Shown: positions 12,321-41,335 of the stretch, piece by piece
Layout of the letters: every line of letters begins with the position of its first letter
How positions within the stretch are numbered: position 1 is the stretch's first letter
Assembly: GCA_947476295.1 (NCBI GenBank)
Contig: CANJQC010000038.1
Location: forward strand, 1-42,568
Direction of reading: 5' to 3'
Source of the DNA: Planctomycetaceae bacterium
GTDB taxonomy: Bacteria; Planctomycetota; Planctomycetia; Planctomycetales; Planctomycetaceae
DNA length: 42,568 nucleotides
Made by a program: the position numbers and the translations under genes
The notes under the pieces: generated by a model
What the model was told of the DNA's origin: nothing
Seen by the model: the letters and a program-made list of their open reading frames with translations, nothing else
Databases searched by the model: none

Positions 12321-13193
12321 CTAAGTCGCAATGCCGGCGACTTGCAATGCCATGTCATAGATTGTGCGTGTTTCGAGGACACGATCGTTGGATTCAAACA
12401 GCGATGCAATCGCCTTCTTGTGGACCTTCATCTTCAGTCCACCCACACCCAGCGCGCCGTAGCAGATCACGCCGAATTTCTCGATCGCCTTTTCCATGAC
12501 GCCGATATCTGCGACCCCGACCGGCGGCACGGCATTGAGGTCGATCGCCAGCTTGAGTCCCTGGATTTTCTGCAGCACACCGGATTCCAGAAAGCAAACG
12601 CCTGCCGCTCCAGCCGACACGATCAACGTCGCATTCTGGCACAATTCCTCGAACTCTGACGGTTGCGAAGCACACGCCGCTGTGACTTGAGCATCGGCAA
12701 CTTTGGTCCGAATTGTGATGCATGCCGATTCCGCACGGTCCAGCGTTCTTGACACGACGGTGACGTTTGCCTTCTCCAGGGCCAGCAACTCTGCCGCTCG
12801 AAGCCCCACCGGGCCGGTCGCACCGAGCACAATTGCTCTACAGCCAGCGAGATTCAAATGCTTACGGGAACTCGCGATTGCGGCTGCGGCCGTGGTGTTG
12901 CATCCATTCGAATCCATCATCACCGACACTCGCATCGGCCCAAAAAACGTCTTCGACACCATTCGAAGCAGCAACTCACCCTTGGCGACGTCGCTGCCAC
13001 CGATGAATATCGCAGAATTCTTTAATTCCGCCGGACCACGCGTGAACATCAATCCATGGACCAGACCTGTCACATTTCCTGGTGTCACCGAACCATACGA
13101 GAAGAGCTGCTCGACGTTTGAATCGACAGCGACAACCTGGTCGAAGCTGCTTGGAAGTGCGTCCGTGTCAAATTGCGCGAGAATGGTTTTCAA
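12321..13193 (-). CDS. mtdB: NAD(P)-dependent methylenetetrahydromethanopterin dehydrogenase
   Basis: About 290 residues, oxidising methylene-H4MPT to methenyl-H4MPT in the formaldehyde/C1 transfer pathway. The N-terminal substrate domain has 'DTDALPSSFDQVVAVD', 'HGLMFTRGP' and the characteristic VMMDSNGCNTTAAA at 91-104. A Rossmann segment GATGPVG lies at 124-130, with VVSRTLDRA after the second strand. The C-terminal 'LAIDLNAVPPVG' and 'GALGVGGLKMKVHK' blocks are typical of MtdB. Planctomycetes are known to carry H4MPT-linked C1 genes. Initiation appears to be TTG at 13193, since no in-frame ATG precedes the conserved start. No other H4MPT gene is in the window. MtdA-like substrate use cannot be excluded. 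Confidence 0.88.
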   Translation of the reverse strand: MKTILAQFDTDALPSSFDQVVAVDSNVEQLFSYGSVTPGNVTGLVHGLMFTRGPAELKNSAIFIGGSDVAKGELLLRMVSKTFFGPMRVSVMMDSNGCNTTAAAAIASSRKHLNLAGCRAIVLGATGPVGLRAAELLALEKANVTVVSRTLDRAESACITIRTKVADAQVTAACASQPSEFEELCQNATLIVSAGAAGVCFLESGVLQKIQGLKLAIDLNAVPPVGVADIGVMEKAIEKFGVICYGALGVGGLKMKVHKKAIASLFESNDRVLETRTIYDMALQVAGIAT

Positions 13194-13633
13194 TTGAGTT
13201 TCCAGAAGCAGAAAAGCGAAGGATGATTGATTGCGAAATCACAACCGTTCACGGTTACCCTTCCTCTGTACGATGGACATTCATGTCCGTCGCTTTGTCC
13301 AACATGCACTGCGAACCTGAGTTGTTTGTGAAACGCCAAATTCTTGGCGTGCTGTAATGTCGTTTGGTCGAGTCTCGGACATGAATGTCCAAGGTACATA
13401 AAAAACCACTCGACGGAGACAATCTCGACAGGAGCGTGAACGGTTACGCGAAATCATACACAGCGCGCAGCCAATGACAAGAATGCAGCAACTTTTCGGA
13501 GGCACAAACACATCATCAGGGCGTGGCCAGTGATTAGTGCGCAACGCTGCCTCACCGACTTGCCATGCCTAACATGGCTGGCTGGCGCCGCAATTTGCCG
13601 CTTGTCCCACACTGGGATTTTACCGCTGGCCCA
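13194..13633. other. Intergenic region with a palindromic repeat pair
   Basis: No gene is supported. A MITE-like element spans about 13263-13398: it starts TGTACGATGGACATTCATG and ends with a near inverse copy, and its two 14-bp near-palindromes are at 13275-13288 and 13377-13390. The rest shows no recognisable feature. Confidence 0.6.
13263..13398. repeat. MITE-like element with GGACATTCATGTCC ends
   Basis: Inverted copies of TGTAC-NN-TGGACATTCATGTCCG lie at both ends, about 136 bp apart. Each end contains GGACAT-NN-ATGTCC, itself a 6+6 palindrome (13275-13288 and 13377-13390). The same motif recurs at 15538, 15620 and 41322. Confidence 0.7.
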
Positions 13634-15454
13634 TTACCTTCGCTGTCCGCCCAGAAACCCGACGCCCTCGGCAAGCTCCCGGCGAAACCGGGACGTTCGT
13701 TCCAGCAATTCGGACAGGCGATGATCGTCGTCGATCACGCCCTGACAAACGTGATCGACTGACGGAAACAGACCCTCCAAAATGCGTGTCTCGACCATCG
13801 TTTGCGCGAGCTTGTGAATTTCCGCTGAGAGTCCACGCCGCAGCCGCCATGTGTAGCTCAGCACCAGCATCGCGGACCACATCATCAGAAAAATCAGTGC
13901 CGGAATGTAAAAGTCGATCGTCAATAATGGCTCCGCATGATCTGCCTTCCCTACGATCGGTGCCAGAAACGAACTCCAGAAAAAATTGTGCCCGATGCGT
14001 CCAATCAAAAACACGAGATACAGCAGCAACAGGATTTCGTAGCGATATCGGGTCATCGCGGAGCAGTTCCGTTCGGCAAGCTGCTCGATCAGTTCATCAA
14101 TTCCGCGTCGCGCGTCTCCAAGGAACTGACTCTCCACCGTCGCCGCCCGGCGACGAAGCTGATGCATATCACGACGATCGCTGAATTCTTCTGAATCAAT
14201 TCCAGCTGAATGCACATACCCGGACACAACCATCCGCGATTCCTGCAGTTGCTGATCCGTGATCCCGAACGACGCCAGCCGCTCCAGCGATGATTCCGCT
14301 TCCTGTTCTTCTACCCGTGACTTCAGCCATCGGGCGCCTTGCACTGCCCCGATCAACGCCATCTGAGCCGACGAACGAGCGCGGAAGAAACTGAACGAAG
14401 CGATGAACGCCCCCAGCCCGTTGTAGAGTCGCAGCACTGCCGAGAACGGACTGAAGCCCCAGATGTTCGTCACAGCGCTCAGCAAACGTCGCTCCCACAG
14501 GTTCTGGTTCACCAGCAATTCATCGCGGAGCTGATTTGTCAGCGTGTCGCGGAGTTTCGTCCGCTGCTGATCAAGAACTTCCTGCAGTTTTTGAATTTCA
14601 GGCAGCTCGCTATCATAATCCGTTCGGCAAACGGTCAACGCTTCTTCTAGGAGATCCATCAGGTTCGCACGGCGAATCGCCACACGCCGCGACGCTCCCA
14701 ACTGGTTTGTCAGCAGTTCGAGCAGGCGACCGAAGTCTCCGGACGGACGCTGCGCCTGCTCAGCGAACGCTCGTCGCGAATCGACAAAGAACATGTCTGG
14801 AACCTGATATTCCGGAGCCAGACTCTGGCGCCAGTCTTCACGGACGTCCGAATCCTGTTCCGCATGAGTCTGCACGAAGACCAGCCGACACCCTGACGCC
14901 GCATCCGAGAGTTCCTCTGCAATTCTTGCACTGCGATATTTTTGCTGAGTCGAAACGTAAAGCAGCACATCGCAATGGGGCAATATCGATCGCAGCCGAG
15001 CAAGATTGCTGCCGGATTCTGCGGCTTCGCTGGTATCAGGATCCGGACAATCAATGATAATCAAATCTCGCAACATGGGAGCATCGATTTTCTTCACATG
15101 AAACTGGCTTAGATCCAATCCCAGCGCGGTCGTTTCAATGTCGGGGTGCACCAGGAGAATGGGCATGGTCGTCGTGGGACGTTGTCGTCCGGATTCCGAT
15201 GCTTCCTGCCCGATCAGCGCGTTGACGAGAGTACTCTTGCCGGTGCCTGTGCCTCCAAACGTCGCAACAACCAGCGGTGATTCGAGGCGAATCCGCAAAG
15301 AATGCACGCGGTCCAGAATTTTCGATACCAGCGACCGCGCCTTCCGTGCAGGCCCCCATGCCGGAACATCGTTCAGCCACCGTCGAACACGCAGCACCAG
15401 TTCATCGATCTCGGCAAGGATCGCGAGTTGCTGCAGTTCAGGTGTGAGTGACAT
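13634..15454 (-). CDS. Membrane-associated P-loop GTPase, first of a divergent pair (dynamin-like architecture)
   Basis: 606 residues. After a helical N-terminus comes a Walker A GGTGTGKST at 67-75 and a TTTMP switch I region near 94-98. The switch II is unusual: DCPDPDT at 135-141 replaces DxxG. The motif STQQKY follows at 168-173. The usual NKxD is absent; VQTHAEQD at 194-201 occupies the site. A long helical middle (about 260-460) follows, with a hydrophobic patch at 336-376. Two probable TM helices lie at 473-490 and 514-536, then a helical tail. GTPase head, helical stalk and membrane segments resemble bacterial dynamin-like and YfjP-type proteins. It lies 197 bp downstream of a second gene of the same design; the two share DxPDxD and TQQKY. 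Function unknown; membrane remodelling is inference. Confidence 0.75.
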   Translation of the reverse strand: MSLTPELQQLAILAEIDELVLRVRRWLNDVPAWGPARKARSLVSKILDRVHSLRIRLESPLVVATFGGTGTGKSTLVNALIGQEASESGRQRPTTTMPILLVHPDIETTALGLDLSQFHVKKIDAPMLRDLIIIDCPDPDTSEAAESGSNLARLRSILPHCDVLLYVSTQQKYRSARIAEELSDAASGCRLVFVQTHAEQDSDVREDWRQSLAPEYQVPDMFFVDSRRAFAEQAQRPSGDFGRLLELLTNQLGASRRVAIRRANLMDLLEEALTVCRTDYDSELPEIQKLQEVLDQQRTKLRDTLTNQLRDELLVNQNLWERRLLSAVTNIWGFSPFSAVLRLYNGLGAFIASFSFFRARSSAQMALIGAVQGARWLKSRVEEQEAESSLERLASFGITDQQLQESRMVVSGYVHSAGIDSEEFSDRRDMHQLRRRAATVESQFLGDARRGIDELIEQLAERNCSAMTRYRYEILLLLYLVFLIGRIGHNFFWSSFLAPIVGKADHAEPLLTIDFYIPALIFLMMWSAMLVLSYTWRLRRGLSAEIHKLAQTMVETRILEGLFPSVDHVCQGVIDDDHRLSELLERTSRFRRELAEGVGFLGGQRR

Positions 15455-15537
15455 GTTTTCTACTTCTCACGGACAGAAATTAATTCGTGGGTGATTTGAA
15501 AAATAGTGGTTATCCGAAGGTGCGATTCCTGTCGCCT

Positions 15538-15633
15538 GGACATTCATGTCCGAGTTTGACATCGAAAACGTATCGCGACCCAGCCTTCATTGTGCTGCCA
15601 TGTCCGCTTAACGGACGACGGACATGAATGTCC
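15538..15633. repeat. Inverted GGACATTCATGTCC pair between the two GTPase genes
   Basis: Near-palindromes at 15538-15551 and 15620-15633 are inverted relative to one another and enclose about 68 bp. It is the same element family as at 13263-13398, lying in the 197-bp gap between the paired GTPase genes, where it could fold in a joint transcript. Confidence 0.7.
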
Positions 15634-15651
15634 ATCCTGTTTATGAACAAC

Positions 15652-17535
15652 CTACAACAACCCCTCAAGTTTTGAAACACTTTTCTGGACTTCGATAAAC
15701 GCATCCGACTTCGTCAACCCCGCCGCAGCATTCAACTCTTCCGGCAGCGCGCCGAGCAACTCGCCATGAACCAGGTTCGTCAGCCAACTCGCGCGTCTTG
15801 CTGTAAAGGCTGAATGCAAACGATGGAACCATGCCTGCAGCATACCTGCTCCGGAACCTGCCGCACTGGACACCGCCGCTTCACCAGCGATCGCAGCCGT
15901 GGCCCCGCCAGCGACATCTGCAAAGACATGAACCACAGCGGACGCTGCTGCATGGCCCAAAAACGGGGCCACCATTTCACCCGCGGGACCGAATCCTATT
16001 GAAAACAGCACGACACTGGTCATTGGTCGCACGACTGCCGAAACGTTGTTCAACTGACGATACATTCCGAACAGGTCTGGCTTGGTTTTTTGCAGATTCT
16101 GCATTTCCTGATCAACAATCAGCGTCAGCTCGTCTTCAAAATCCAGCGCATCGTGCTTTTGCTTCAGCAACGTCAGGAGCTGGGATCGTGCTGCACCCTG
16201 CAATACGGCCTCGATGCGAGGTCGGATGATTTCATTTCCGGAATCTGCCATCCACTGCAACTTGTCGAACAATTCTTCGACGACTCCCAGCACCGCCAGC
16301 CACTCGCGACTGCGGTAGCCTTCCATCAGCGGTACAGGTTCGCCCTGCAAGGCACGCCGCGCTGCTCGGATCGGCCACAGAAGTCCGCTGCCTACAGTGT
16401 TGTAGGCCGAATTAATCGCGCGTGCCCAGCCTTCCTGATGAGCGTGCCACCACTGACGTATTTCTGCCACCAGGATTGAATTGGCAGGTGATGGCCAGTT
16501 GCGGACCTGCACGACGCTGTCAGTCGTCAGCCGCGTGGCAGTACGTCCCAGATCCTCACTAGCCAATCGCAGTTCTCGCAGATACGCCGGAATGCCGCGC
16601 TGCGGATGAGTCAACTCATGCAGTGAACCCAGCAGAGTTCTCATGCGAATTTCGCGAAATCGCAGCTTCGCCAGATCAGCAGCAAGATCTCGCGGCGTGT
16701 TGTCCGGTGCGGGCGGAGTATCTTCCGAATTTGTGCCGGGAATCCGCCGTTCAAAAAACGGCAGCCGCAGATCTTCGGCCGCGCGGCGATCATTCGGAGT
16801 AATATAAACGGCATCCGGCGAGATATGAGTTTCGCGGCAGAATGTCTCCAGCCAGATCGGCCAGTATGGTTCGTCTTCCGGAAGCAGGCACTGATTGAAA
16901 ATTACCAGCACCGCCTTGTCTTCGTCACCGGCTTTGCGGAAAAATTCTTTCACGGCTGCGTCGTTGTATTTTTGCTGAGTCAATACGGCGATCAACACAT
17001 CCGCCGATCGACGCACAGCATCAGCACGAACCCAGTTGACTCGTGCATCACTGTCAATGTCCGGTGTGTCGAGGACCAGTAAGGAAGGCGGCAATTCCTT
17101 CGCGACGCGCCAGAACAATCGATGCGTGTCAGATTCCTCCAAAGCCAAAGATGCGTCTGACCATTCGTGCAGTTCGAAATCCGGAAAGACGGACTGCAGA
17201 TCATGTTGTGCATTGAAGCCTTCGGGCACAAGGCACGTCGCATGCTTTGTGCCGGAAGCCAGCGGACTGGTCGCACTGGCACACGATCCGGCCAGATGGT
17301 TAAAGATCACGCTCTTGCCGATGTTCGTGCCACCAACAACAGCCACCACCAGAAACGCCTGCTCCCCCAGCTGCGGAATCAGCTTCTGCCGCAGCAATTC
17401 AAACCATTCCCGTTCAACCAACGGCACCGGCTGCAACAACGCCGCCTCGCTTTCCAGTTGCAACAGCGCCGGAAGCAGACTACGCACTGTGGCAGCACAG
17501 TGATTGAACAGTACGTCTTGTTTCGCTTCGTCCAC
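15652..17535 (-). CDS. Membrane-associated P-loop GTPase, second of the pair
   Basis: 627 residues from a GTG at 17535; no ATG is available upstream. Walker A GGTNIGKS sits at 68-75, a GTKHAT segment at 95-100 could be switch I, and DTPDIDSD at 156-163 replaces the DxxG motif, exactly as in its neighbour. TQQKY follows at 186-190, and FNQCL at 213-217 takes the NKxD place. A long helical region follows. Residues about 495-575 are hydrophobic, rich in A and G ('VLFSIGFGPAGEMVAPFLG', 'AAIAGEAAVSSAAGSGAG'), suggesting hairpin insertion into membrane. It would be transcribed first, ahead of the 606-residue partner. Bacterial dynamin-like proteins often occur as adjacent unlike pairs, which fits; the specific role is unknown. 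Confidence 0.75.
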   Translation of the reverse strand: MDEAKQDVLFNHCAATVRSLLPALLQLESEAALLQPVPLVEREWFELLRQKLIPQLGEQAFLVVAVVGGTNIGKSVIFNHLAGSCASATSPLASGTKHATCLVPEGFNAQHDLQSVFPDFELHEWSDASLALEESDTHRLFWRVAKELPPSLLVLDTPDIDSDARVNWVRADAVRRSADVLIAVLTQQKYNDAAVKEFFRKAGDEDKAVLVIFNQCLLPEDEPYWPIWLETFCRETHISPDAVYITPNDRRAAEDLRLPFFERRIPGTNSEDTPPAPDNTPRDLAADLAKLRFREIRMRTLLGSLHELTHPQRGIPAYLRELRLASEDLGRTATRLTTDSVVQVRNWPSPANSILVAEIRQWWHAHQEGWARAINSAYNTVGSGLLWPIRAARRALQGEPVPLMEGYRSREWLAVLGVVEELFDKLQWMADSGNEIIRPRIEAVLQGAARSQLLTLLKQKHDALDFEDELTLIVDQEMQNLQKTKPDLFGMYRQLNNVSAVVRPMTSVVLFSIGFGPAGEMVAPFLGHAAASAVVHVFADVAGGATAAIAGEAAVSSAAGSGAGMLQAWFHRLHSAFTARRASWLTNLVHGELLGALPEELNAAAGLTKSDAFIEVQKSVSKLEGLL

Positions 17536-41321: not shown

Positions 41322-41335
41322 GGACATGAATGTCC
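41322..41335. repeat. GGACATGAATGTCC palindromic repeat, single copy
   Basis: The same 14-bp near-palindrome as in the paired elements at 13263-13398 and 15538-15633, here without an inverted partner. It lies between the convergent ends of agmatine deiminase and the TIM-barrel gene, 14 bp beyond the latter's stop. Its flank CCAACGTACGT resembles the CCAAGGTACAT flank at 13389. Confidence 0.7.

Follow-up and report, generated by a model that had tools for sequence, protein, structure and literature searches.

Within a 42,568-nucleotide stretch of DNA from a Planctomycetaceae bacterium (contig CANJQC010000038.1 of assembly GCA_947476295.1; this whole stretch is called the window hereafter), two adjacent genes, named here A and B, probably encode a heterotypic pair of dynamin-like proteins which, as their sequences and predicted models suggest, would bend, tether or cut the cytoplasmic membrane. 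The genome carrying them amounts to 5,986,839 bases in 252 contigs and is about 99% complete. A precedes B head to tail on the minus strand, with a gap of 197 bp, and the two adjoining reading frames of 627 and 606 residues described in an earlier note on this DNA were found in place, with the following features (coordinates are those of the window).

15652..17535, minus strand: gene A, 627 aa, GTG start; predicted dynamin-like protein lacking any clear transmembrane span, its G4 motif degenerate
17311..17334, minus strand: P-loop of A, GGTNIGKS, residues 68-75
17050..17070, minus strand: switch II of A, DTPDIDS, residues 156-162, DxPD replacing DxxG
16966..16980, minus strand: TQQKY of A, residues 186-190, within the loop that follows a predicted beta strand (180-185)
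16885..16896, minus strand: G4 place of A, NQCL, residues 214-217, without aspartate
15871..16047, minus strand: hydrophobic Ala/Gly-rich segment of A, residues 497-555, of low model confidence; candidate membrane-inserting tip
13634..15454, minus strand: gene B, 606 aa; predicted dynamin-like GTPase with two predicted transmembrane spans
15233..15256, minus strand: P-loop of B, GGTGTGKS, residues 67-74
15032..15052, minus strand: switch II of B, DCPDPDT, residues 135-141
14936..14950, minus strand: TQQKY of B, residues 169-173
14858..14869, minus strand: G4 place of B, THAE, residues 196-199
13973..14041, minus strand: predicted membrane span 1 of B, residues 472-494
13841..13936, minus strand: predicted membrane span 2 of B, residues 507-538

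Judged by sequence, A and B are diverged homologues. A single-sequence comparison aligns them at 32% identity across B residues 59-235 (E 3.4e-6), and a profile-profile comparison does so over 175 columns (98.0%, E 1.8e-13), superposing the P-loop, switch II and TQQKY of one protein on those of the other; a whole-genome search with B returned A and B itself as sole matches. The P-loop, the switch II of DxPDxD type and the TQQKY motif that the earlier note had described as common to both proteins were all located in A and in B, the spacing from the switch II aspartate to the threonine of TQQKY being 30 residues in A and 34 residues in B. The absence of NKxD, also claimed there, holds for both, A reading NQCL and B reading THAE at the aligned positions.

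Regarding the orthologues, the loci studied were the best 80 of 269 relatives found in the genome collection, from which one alignment (A3) took 59 of the 76 uncut A proteins and another (A4) 41 of the 44 uncut B proteins. Among A proteins, GGTNxGK[ST], DxPDxD and TQQKYND are each present in 60/60 (A3), and among B proteins GGTGxGKS, DCPDxD and QQKY are each present in 42/42, with the full TQQKY in 41 and SQQKY in the remaining one. The G1 P-loop GxxxxGKS/T is thereby common to all 60 A and all 42 B proteins. The switch I (G2) threonine, assigned by position alone, is likewise invariant (T96 in 60/60 A proteins, T94 and T95 in 42/42 B proteins), as is the first switch II aspartate in all 60 A proteins. 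At the G4 place, the A orthologues all start with NQ (60/60) and have aspartate as the fourth letter in 2/60; the B orthologues have aspartate in 33/42 and glutamate in five, the B of the window included.

The predicted folds point in the same direction. AlphaFold2 models computed from alignments of the window protein and genome-collection proteins reached a pLDDT of 79.8 and a pTM of 0.71 for A (60 rows), and 78.2 and 0.65 for B (42 rows), with pLDDT below 50 at residues 500-560 of A, which correspond to its hydrophobic segment, and 354-395 of B. Both models consist of N-terminal helices, a GTPase domain and long trunk helices. When compared with the PDB by Foldseek, all 50 listed matches of B (112 with E<=0.001) and the first 33 matches of A (39 with E<=0.001) belong to the dynamin superfamily, in which we presume the matched IRG and EHD proteins to fall. 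BDLP is the top match of both proteins (2j68 for B, E 5.4e-10; 2j69 for A, E 3.1e-08), and the Cj-DLP1/2 pair (5owv/5oxf), IniA and mitofusin/Fzo1 are further matches. The models thus match dynamin-superfamily folds before ordinary translation GTPases, the comparison that the earlier note had proposed, and its suggestion that dynamin-like membrane GTPases are paired here as unlike partners is supported by this ranking of predicted structures together with gene adjacency. At the level of sequence families, Pfam Dynamin_N is matched with E<=0.001 by 41/42 B proteins and 19/60 A proteins. One further PDB match of the B sequence, to the designed protein 7ong (E 2.4e-7), was set aside.

Membrane segments toward the C-terminus had also been claimed for both proteins; they are clear in B, where a two-span hydrophobic hairpin is predicted between the trunk helices, and A has merely a moderately hydrophobic, Ala/Gly-rich stretch, weaker than the hairpin and at a similar place in the helix order. 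A pair of strong hydrophobic peaks close to the C-terminus recurs in 3/3 distant B-type proteins and in two actinobacterial relatives introduced below (both Nonomuraea ORF2). Among the A-type partners of three further pairs, no peak is seen in one (L197), one in another (L059) and a strong one in the third (L066).

The distribution of the two genes was followed in a phylum sample of 294 genomes, each at least 90% complete, listed in order of kinship; the no-match part of this list opens with other families, and 91 no-match genomes lie outside it. A was found in 33/33 listed genomes of its own family, that of the window included, with E<=8.5e-141. Among the 37 closest own-family genomes, which include fragmented drafts, A was matched in 33 and B in 36: A was missed in G015, G029, G033 and G034, all four fragmented drafts, and B in G031. 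Both genes are visible by coordinates in 32 of these 37, side by side in 26, apart in five (G021, G023, G025, G027, G028) and split by contig ends in one (G036). The search for B covered 69 of the 294 genomes: 32 own-family and four same-class genomes with A, 14 of the 18 distant genomes with a diverged A (G062, G084, G106 and G316 were omitted), and 19 of the 20 listed genomes with no A match (G045, which has a diverged A, was omitted, and the 91 others lay outside the search). B (E<=1e-13) was present in 48 of the 50 A-positive genomes (31/32 own-family, 4/4 same-class, 13/14 distant) and in 0 of the 19 A-negative ones, in which the best cross-match reached 8.5e-6 over about 60 residues. Because these genomes are related, the 69 do not count as independent events. 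Planctomycete genomes thus mostly have or lack A and B together.

Adjacency was counted at the 74 of the 80 loci that have at least 1 kb beyond A. At 46 of them B directly follows A with the gene order kept, and in 12 of these 46 the two genes overlap by 4 bp. The divergence of A and that of B are correlated (r 0.96 over 43 pairs), as is expected from vertical inheritance. A search for a conserved operon extending past the pair found none: even the most frequent neighbour cluster recurred in no more than 26 out of 202 contexts, in a clustering that merged A and B, counted some loci twice and left aside what the neighbours do.

Older relatives extend the pair beyond its own family. By the A and B profiles, both genes are present at each of the eight class-level loci that were fetched (L061-L068), and of the 17 distant loci (L189-L205) ten have them side by side, three are cut by contig ends and four have no B beside A; at one locus (L191) a weak B-profile match lies about 2 kb from A. 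As a separate observation, two of these genomes (L190 and L191, genomes G105 and G153) have a lone A-type gene and, on another contig, two neighbouring B-profile matches, so that three dynamin-like partners possibly coexist there.

An alignment of 61 GTPase domains from Planctomycetota and the actinobacterial genus Nonomuraea was assembled by hand-choosing rows, with cut frames and some near-duplicates excluded; DxPD is present in 61/61 rows and DxPDxD in 48/61, in a set retrieved with profiles from DxPD-bearing proteins, by which DxPG relatives may be missed, even though the slicing step allowed DxPG. The proposal of the earlier note that TQQKY and DxPDxD together mark the family therefore needs to be divided: DxPD marks the wider set, and the full TQQKY is restricted to the near family. 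The G4 aspartate is found in 23/27 B-type versus 7/34 A-type rows, Nonomuraea ORF1 being counted as A and ORF2 as B. The residues at these positions indicate that the asymmetry recurs across the phylum, B being nearer to a working GTPase and A poorer in guanine-specificity residues. In the tree, 30 of the 32 planctomycete A-type rows fall on one side of a branch with support 99/96, and the other side holds every B-type row together with the four Nonomuraea proteins and two deep A-type rows (L204 and L067). A and B are thus two old partner lineages.

The Nonomuraea relatives were reached by a tblastn search of a plasmid collection, in which A matched Nonomuraea gerenzanensis at 27.9% identity (E 0.1) and B at 29.5% (E 3e-7). 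The replicon concerned, NZ_LT559118.1 (11.85 Mb, filed as a plasmid), carries two tandem pairs (L153 and L154), both unannotated. Profile matches are far stronger than these single-sequence ones: at L153, the A profile matches ORF1 (5.3e-15) and the B profile ORF2 (3.8e-14). The profiles cross-match as well (B profile on ORF1, 5.0e-14; A profile on ORF2, 5.3e-11); given this and the place of ORF1 in the tree, it is not established that A and ORF1 correspond one to one. Like A and B, the pairs have DxPDxD in all four proteins and neighbours that overlap by 4 bp; at the place of TQQKY, they read TSARY or TAARY in ORF1 and DPQKYADA in both ORF2, which, unlike A and B of the window, retain NQxD. 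A search of viral contigs (IMG/VR) with the B alignment found no relative, and the best matches in PHROGs had E 0.03 or weaker. Two IMG/VR contigs (L232 and L233) encode relatives of Nonomuraea ORF2, with 49 and 58% identity over part of the protein; these contigs are perhaps host DNA.

Several observations weigh against reading A and B as a dynamin-like pair that works in common. DxxG (G3) is common to all bacterial dynamin-like proteins, according to one account (PMC5827413), and is replaced here by DxPD in 60/60 A proteins, 42/42 B proteins and 61/61 wider rows. The A of the window, with 14.9 bits, fails the curated Dynamin_N cut-off of 27 bits, and B passes it narrowly with 27.6. The query-normalised TM-scores of the fold matches are low, about 0.2 to 0.33, and support from them is therefore limited to domain order and local fold, although hinged proteins compared in different states would yield low scores. 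The membrane asymmetry has exceptions, since a strong hydrophobic peak is also seen in the A-type protein of L066, and Nonomuraea ORF1 groups weakly on the B side (80/11) with L204 and L067, which departs from a neat two-family tree. One genome (G267) has A without B and another (G112) a diverged A without B. Moreover, B does not adjoin A in 28/74 loci; the conserved adjacency that the earlier note expected thus holds in part, the genes being in the same order at 46 loci and apart at 28, with both still present in 5/5 own-family genomes in which they lie apart. Finally, a family of the same class (f5) lacks both genes in 8/8 genomes tested, a ninth (G040) giving weak cross-matches alone (9.9e-4 and 7.2e-5), and A is missing in 5/7 genomes of family f2, one of which (G042) has a diverged B-like match (2.1e-15); the pair is therefore not a general requirement in the class. 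These absences also count against a task in division: if f5 likewise divides without FtsZ, as the literature holds for the whole phylum, A and B cannot be required throughout.

In most of the f5 genomes, a different membrane-GTPase tandem is found. Six of the eight carry it, five having been read (DTPG with NKxD or NKED) and one (G057) identified by coordinates; G256 has both tandem genes on two contigs, and G054 shows a Der-type match alone. Pfam DUF697 was found in both genomes checked, one of f5 (G281) and one of another family (G333). Like A and B, these DUF697 proteins are tandem membrane GTPases of planctomycetes; unlike them, they have a canonical DTPG and NKxD and belong to a different family. 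It could be guessed that this tandem stands in for A and B in f5. A second tandem was seen in 0/12 A/B-positive genomes, by coordinates from a Dynamin_N search not designed for it, a hint of mutual exclusion between the two pairs. The loci of this tandem, L244-L251 and L253 (families f5 and f10), have the canonical DTPG, and DUF697 where checked, in genomes free of A and B, the genes of L249 and L250 lying on separate contigs.

Set beside known systems, A and B share with bacterial dynamin-like proteins a P-loop, a switch I and a predicted fold with long helical neck and trunk. Their closest fold matches, BDLP1 of Nostoc and mitofusin/Fzo1, likewise combine a GTPase domain with long helices and place a membrane element between the trunk helices, with the low TM-scores mentioned above; the G3 of both is DxPG. 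In bacterial dynamin-like proteins the G4 motif is RD or N/TxxD and is less conserved, again according to PMC5827413. As G3 differs and Dynamin_N is passed by B alone, we therefore describe A and B as working like a bacterial dynamin-like pair rather than as plain members; the pair is a new variant within dynamin-like proteins. The Cj-DLP1/2 proteins of Campylobacter jejuni, like A and B, are a side-by-side unlike pair with a dynamin fold; they form a 2:2 tetramer reported to be cytosolic (PMC6104087), whereas B is predicted to be membrane-anchored and has DxPD in switch II. Streptomyces DynA and DynB are also partnered dynamin-like proteins, and DynB has two transmembrane segments, as predicted for B (PMC8748795); the same source describes both as stabilising division rings in sporulating hyphae. 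Compared by description alone, they differ in acting with the FtsZ divisome, the genome of A and B having no FtsZ match.

A and B are probably unlike halves of one dynamin-like machine that remodels membranes. B would be the anchored, GTP-binding member and A a partner less specific for guanine, docking on B by way of the GTPase domains, while the TQQKY loop and the DxPD switch may belong to the A-B interface or to the hydrolysis switch; nucleotide-driven cycles of assembly would then bend, tether or cut the cytoplasmic membrane. Bacterial dynamin-like proteins are mostly encoded as side-by-side pairs whose members are known or suspected to need each other (PMC6104087). Searched for FtsZ, this genome gave no match at E<=1, and the same search matched 14/14 controls, 13 of them over the cut-off. 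According to PMC10632474, ftsZ has been lost from all Planctomycetes, which use an unknown machinery to divide; the words 'GTPase' and 'dynamin' are both absent from the main text of that paper. The dynamin-like anatomy, the pairs in the literature and the lack of an FtsZ match together lead us therefore to read A and B as joint membrane remodellers. The likeliest task, advanced tentatively and open to doubt, is the shaping or constriction of the cytoplasmic membrane during growth and division of cells without FtsZ. A literature search on dynamin or GTPase and planctomycetes gave no account of the pair by title or abstract; subscription papers were mostly outside it, which makes it weak evidence of absence.

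The same machine might serve membrane repair or protection against envelope stress rather than division, a serious possibility that falls short of being probable. Such roles have been proposed for DynA of Bacillus subtilis and for mycobacterial IniA (PMC6104087 and PMC6715688), and the absence of the pair from some families would fit a protective system. However, A is present in all 33 listed own-family genomes and in 33/37 of the nearest, the misses being fragmented drafts, and this near-universal presence suggests a housekeeping task in that family. Repair or stress protection is compatible with the proposed mechanism and contests the task alone. As a refinement, A may be a pseudo-enzyme adaptor, acting as receptor or regulator, with B alone hydrolysing GTP; we regard this as conceivable but doubtful. 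It would account for the scarcity of the G4 aspartate on the A side, both in the wider set (7/34 versus 23/27) and in near orthologues (2/60 versus 33/42); the P-loop, the switch I threonine and the first switch II aspartate, present in all 60 A proteins of A3, speak against it and suggest that nucleotide binding is probably kept.

It is very unlikely that A and B are Era/Der-type or septin/Toc-type GTPases with an unrelated helical tail. Sequence-only PDB matches are mainly to the P-loop regions of NTPases such as Era and Der, and Pfam MMR_HSR1 is passed by both A and B; but Era, the first ordinary translation-GTPase fold match, comes at rank 34 for A and is absent among the 50 listed matches of B, and the GTPase domain is followed by long helices and a membrane segment. 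Least credible is an anti-phage defence of the Leo dynamin-like membrane type, since the weak PADLOC matches (B: LeoBC 6.2e-06, mad8 1e-4, LeoA 4.8e-4; A: LeoA 0.004) are limited, for Leo, to the N-terminal and P-loop part, the best one (LeoBC) spanning B residues 37-96, and since both genes are kept family-wide and diverge in step (r 0.96, 43 pairs), unlike patchy defence genes.

Other features of the window and its genome were recorded in passing. Downstream of the pair, a methylene-tetrahydromethanopterin dehydrogenase is encoded on the minus strand at 12321-13193 (Pfam Mpt_N, E 7.7e-31). A REPIN-like dispersed repeat with the palindrome GGACATTCATGTCC or GGACATGAATGTCC has five copies in the window versus 0.03 expected, at the following positions.

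13275-13390, 15538-15633 and 41322-41335: REPIN-like repeat copies

One pair of copies lies inside the gap between A and B and another just after B. With a trailing G, the palindrome has 115 matches in the genome versus 0 in a reversed control, and many of the listed matches form inverted pairs about 100 bp apart; the exact palindrome was not found in the loci of seven relatives. A candidate second dynamin in this genome (C31), picked up by Dynamin_N matches, was rejected, as the reading frame is EngA/Der.

What the pair may mean for planctomycetes can be stated at several levels. Nearly always present in one planctomycete family, it provides a concrete candidate for deletion, and the replacement of the switch II glycine by aspartate, common to both partners and to an actinobacterial pair, sets apart a dynamin-like lineage that may run through its nucleotide cycle in another way than the textbook case. 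Should DynA and DynB of Streptomyces prove to be of the same family, A and B would also be related to those division dynamins. At its furthest, and improbably so far, the pair would be an FtsZ-independent constriction module with a DxPD switch, predating the divergence of several planctomycete families and related to actinobacterial pairs, that performs the membrane work of budding or invagination.

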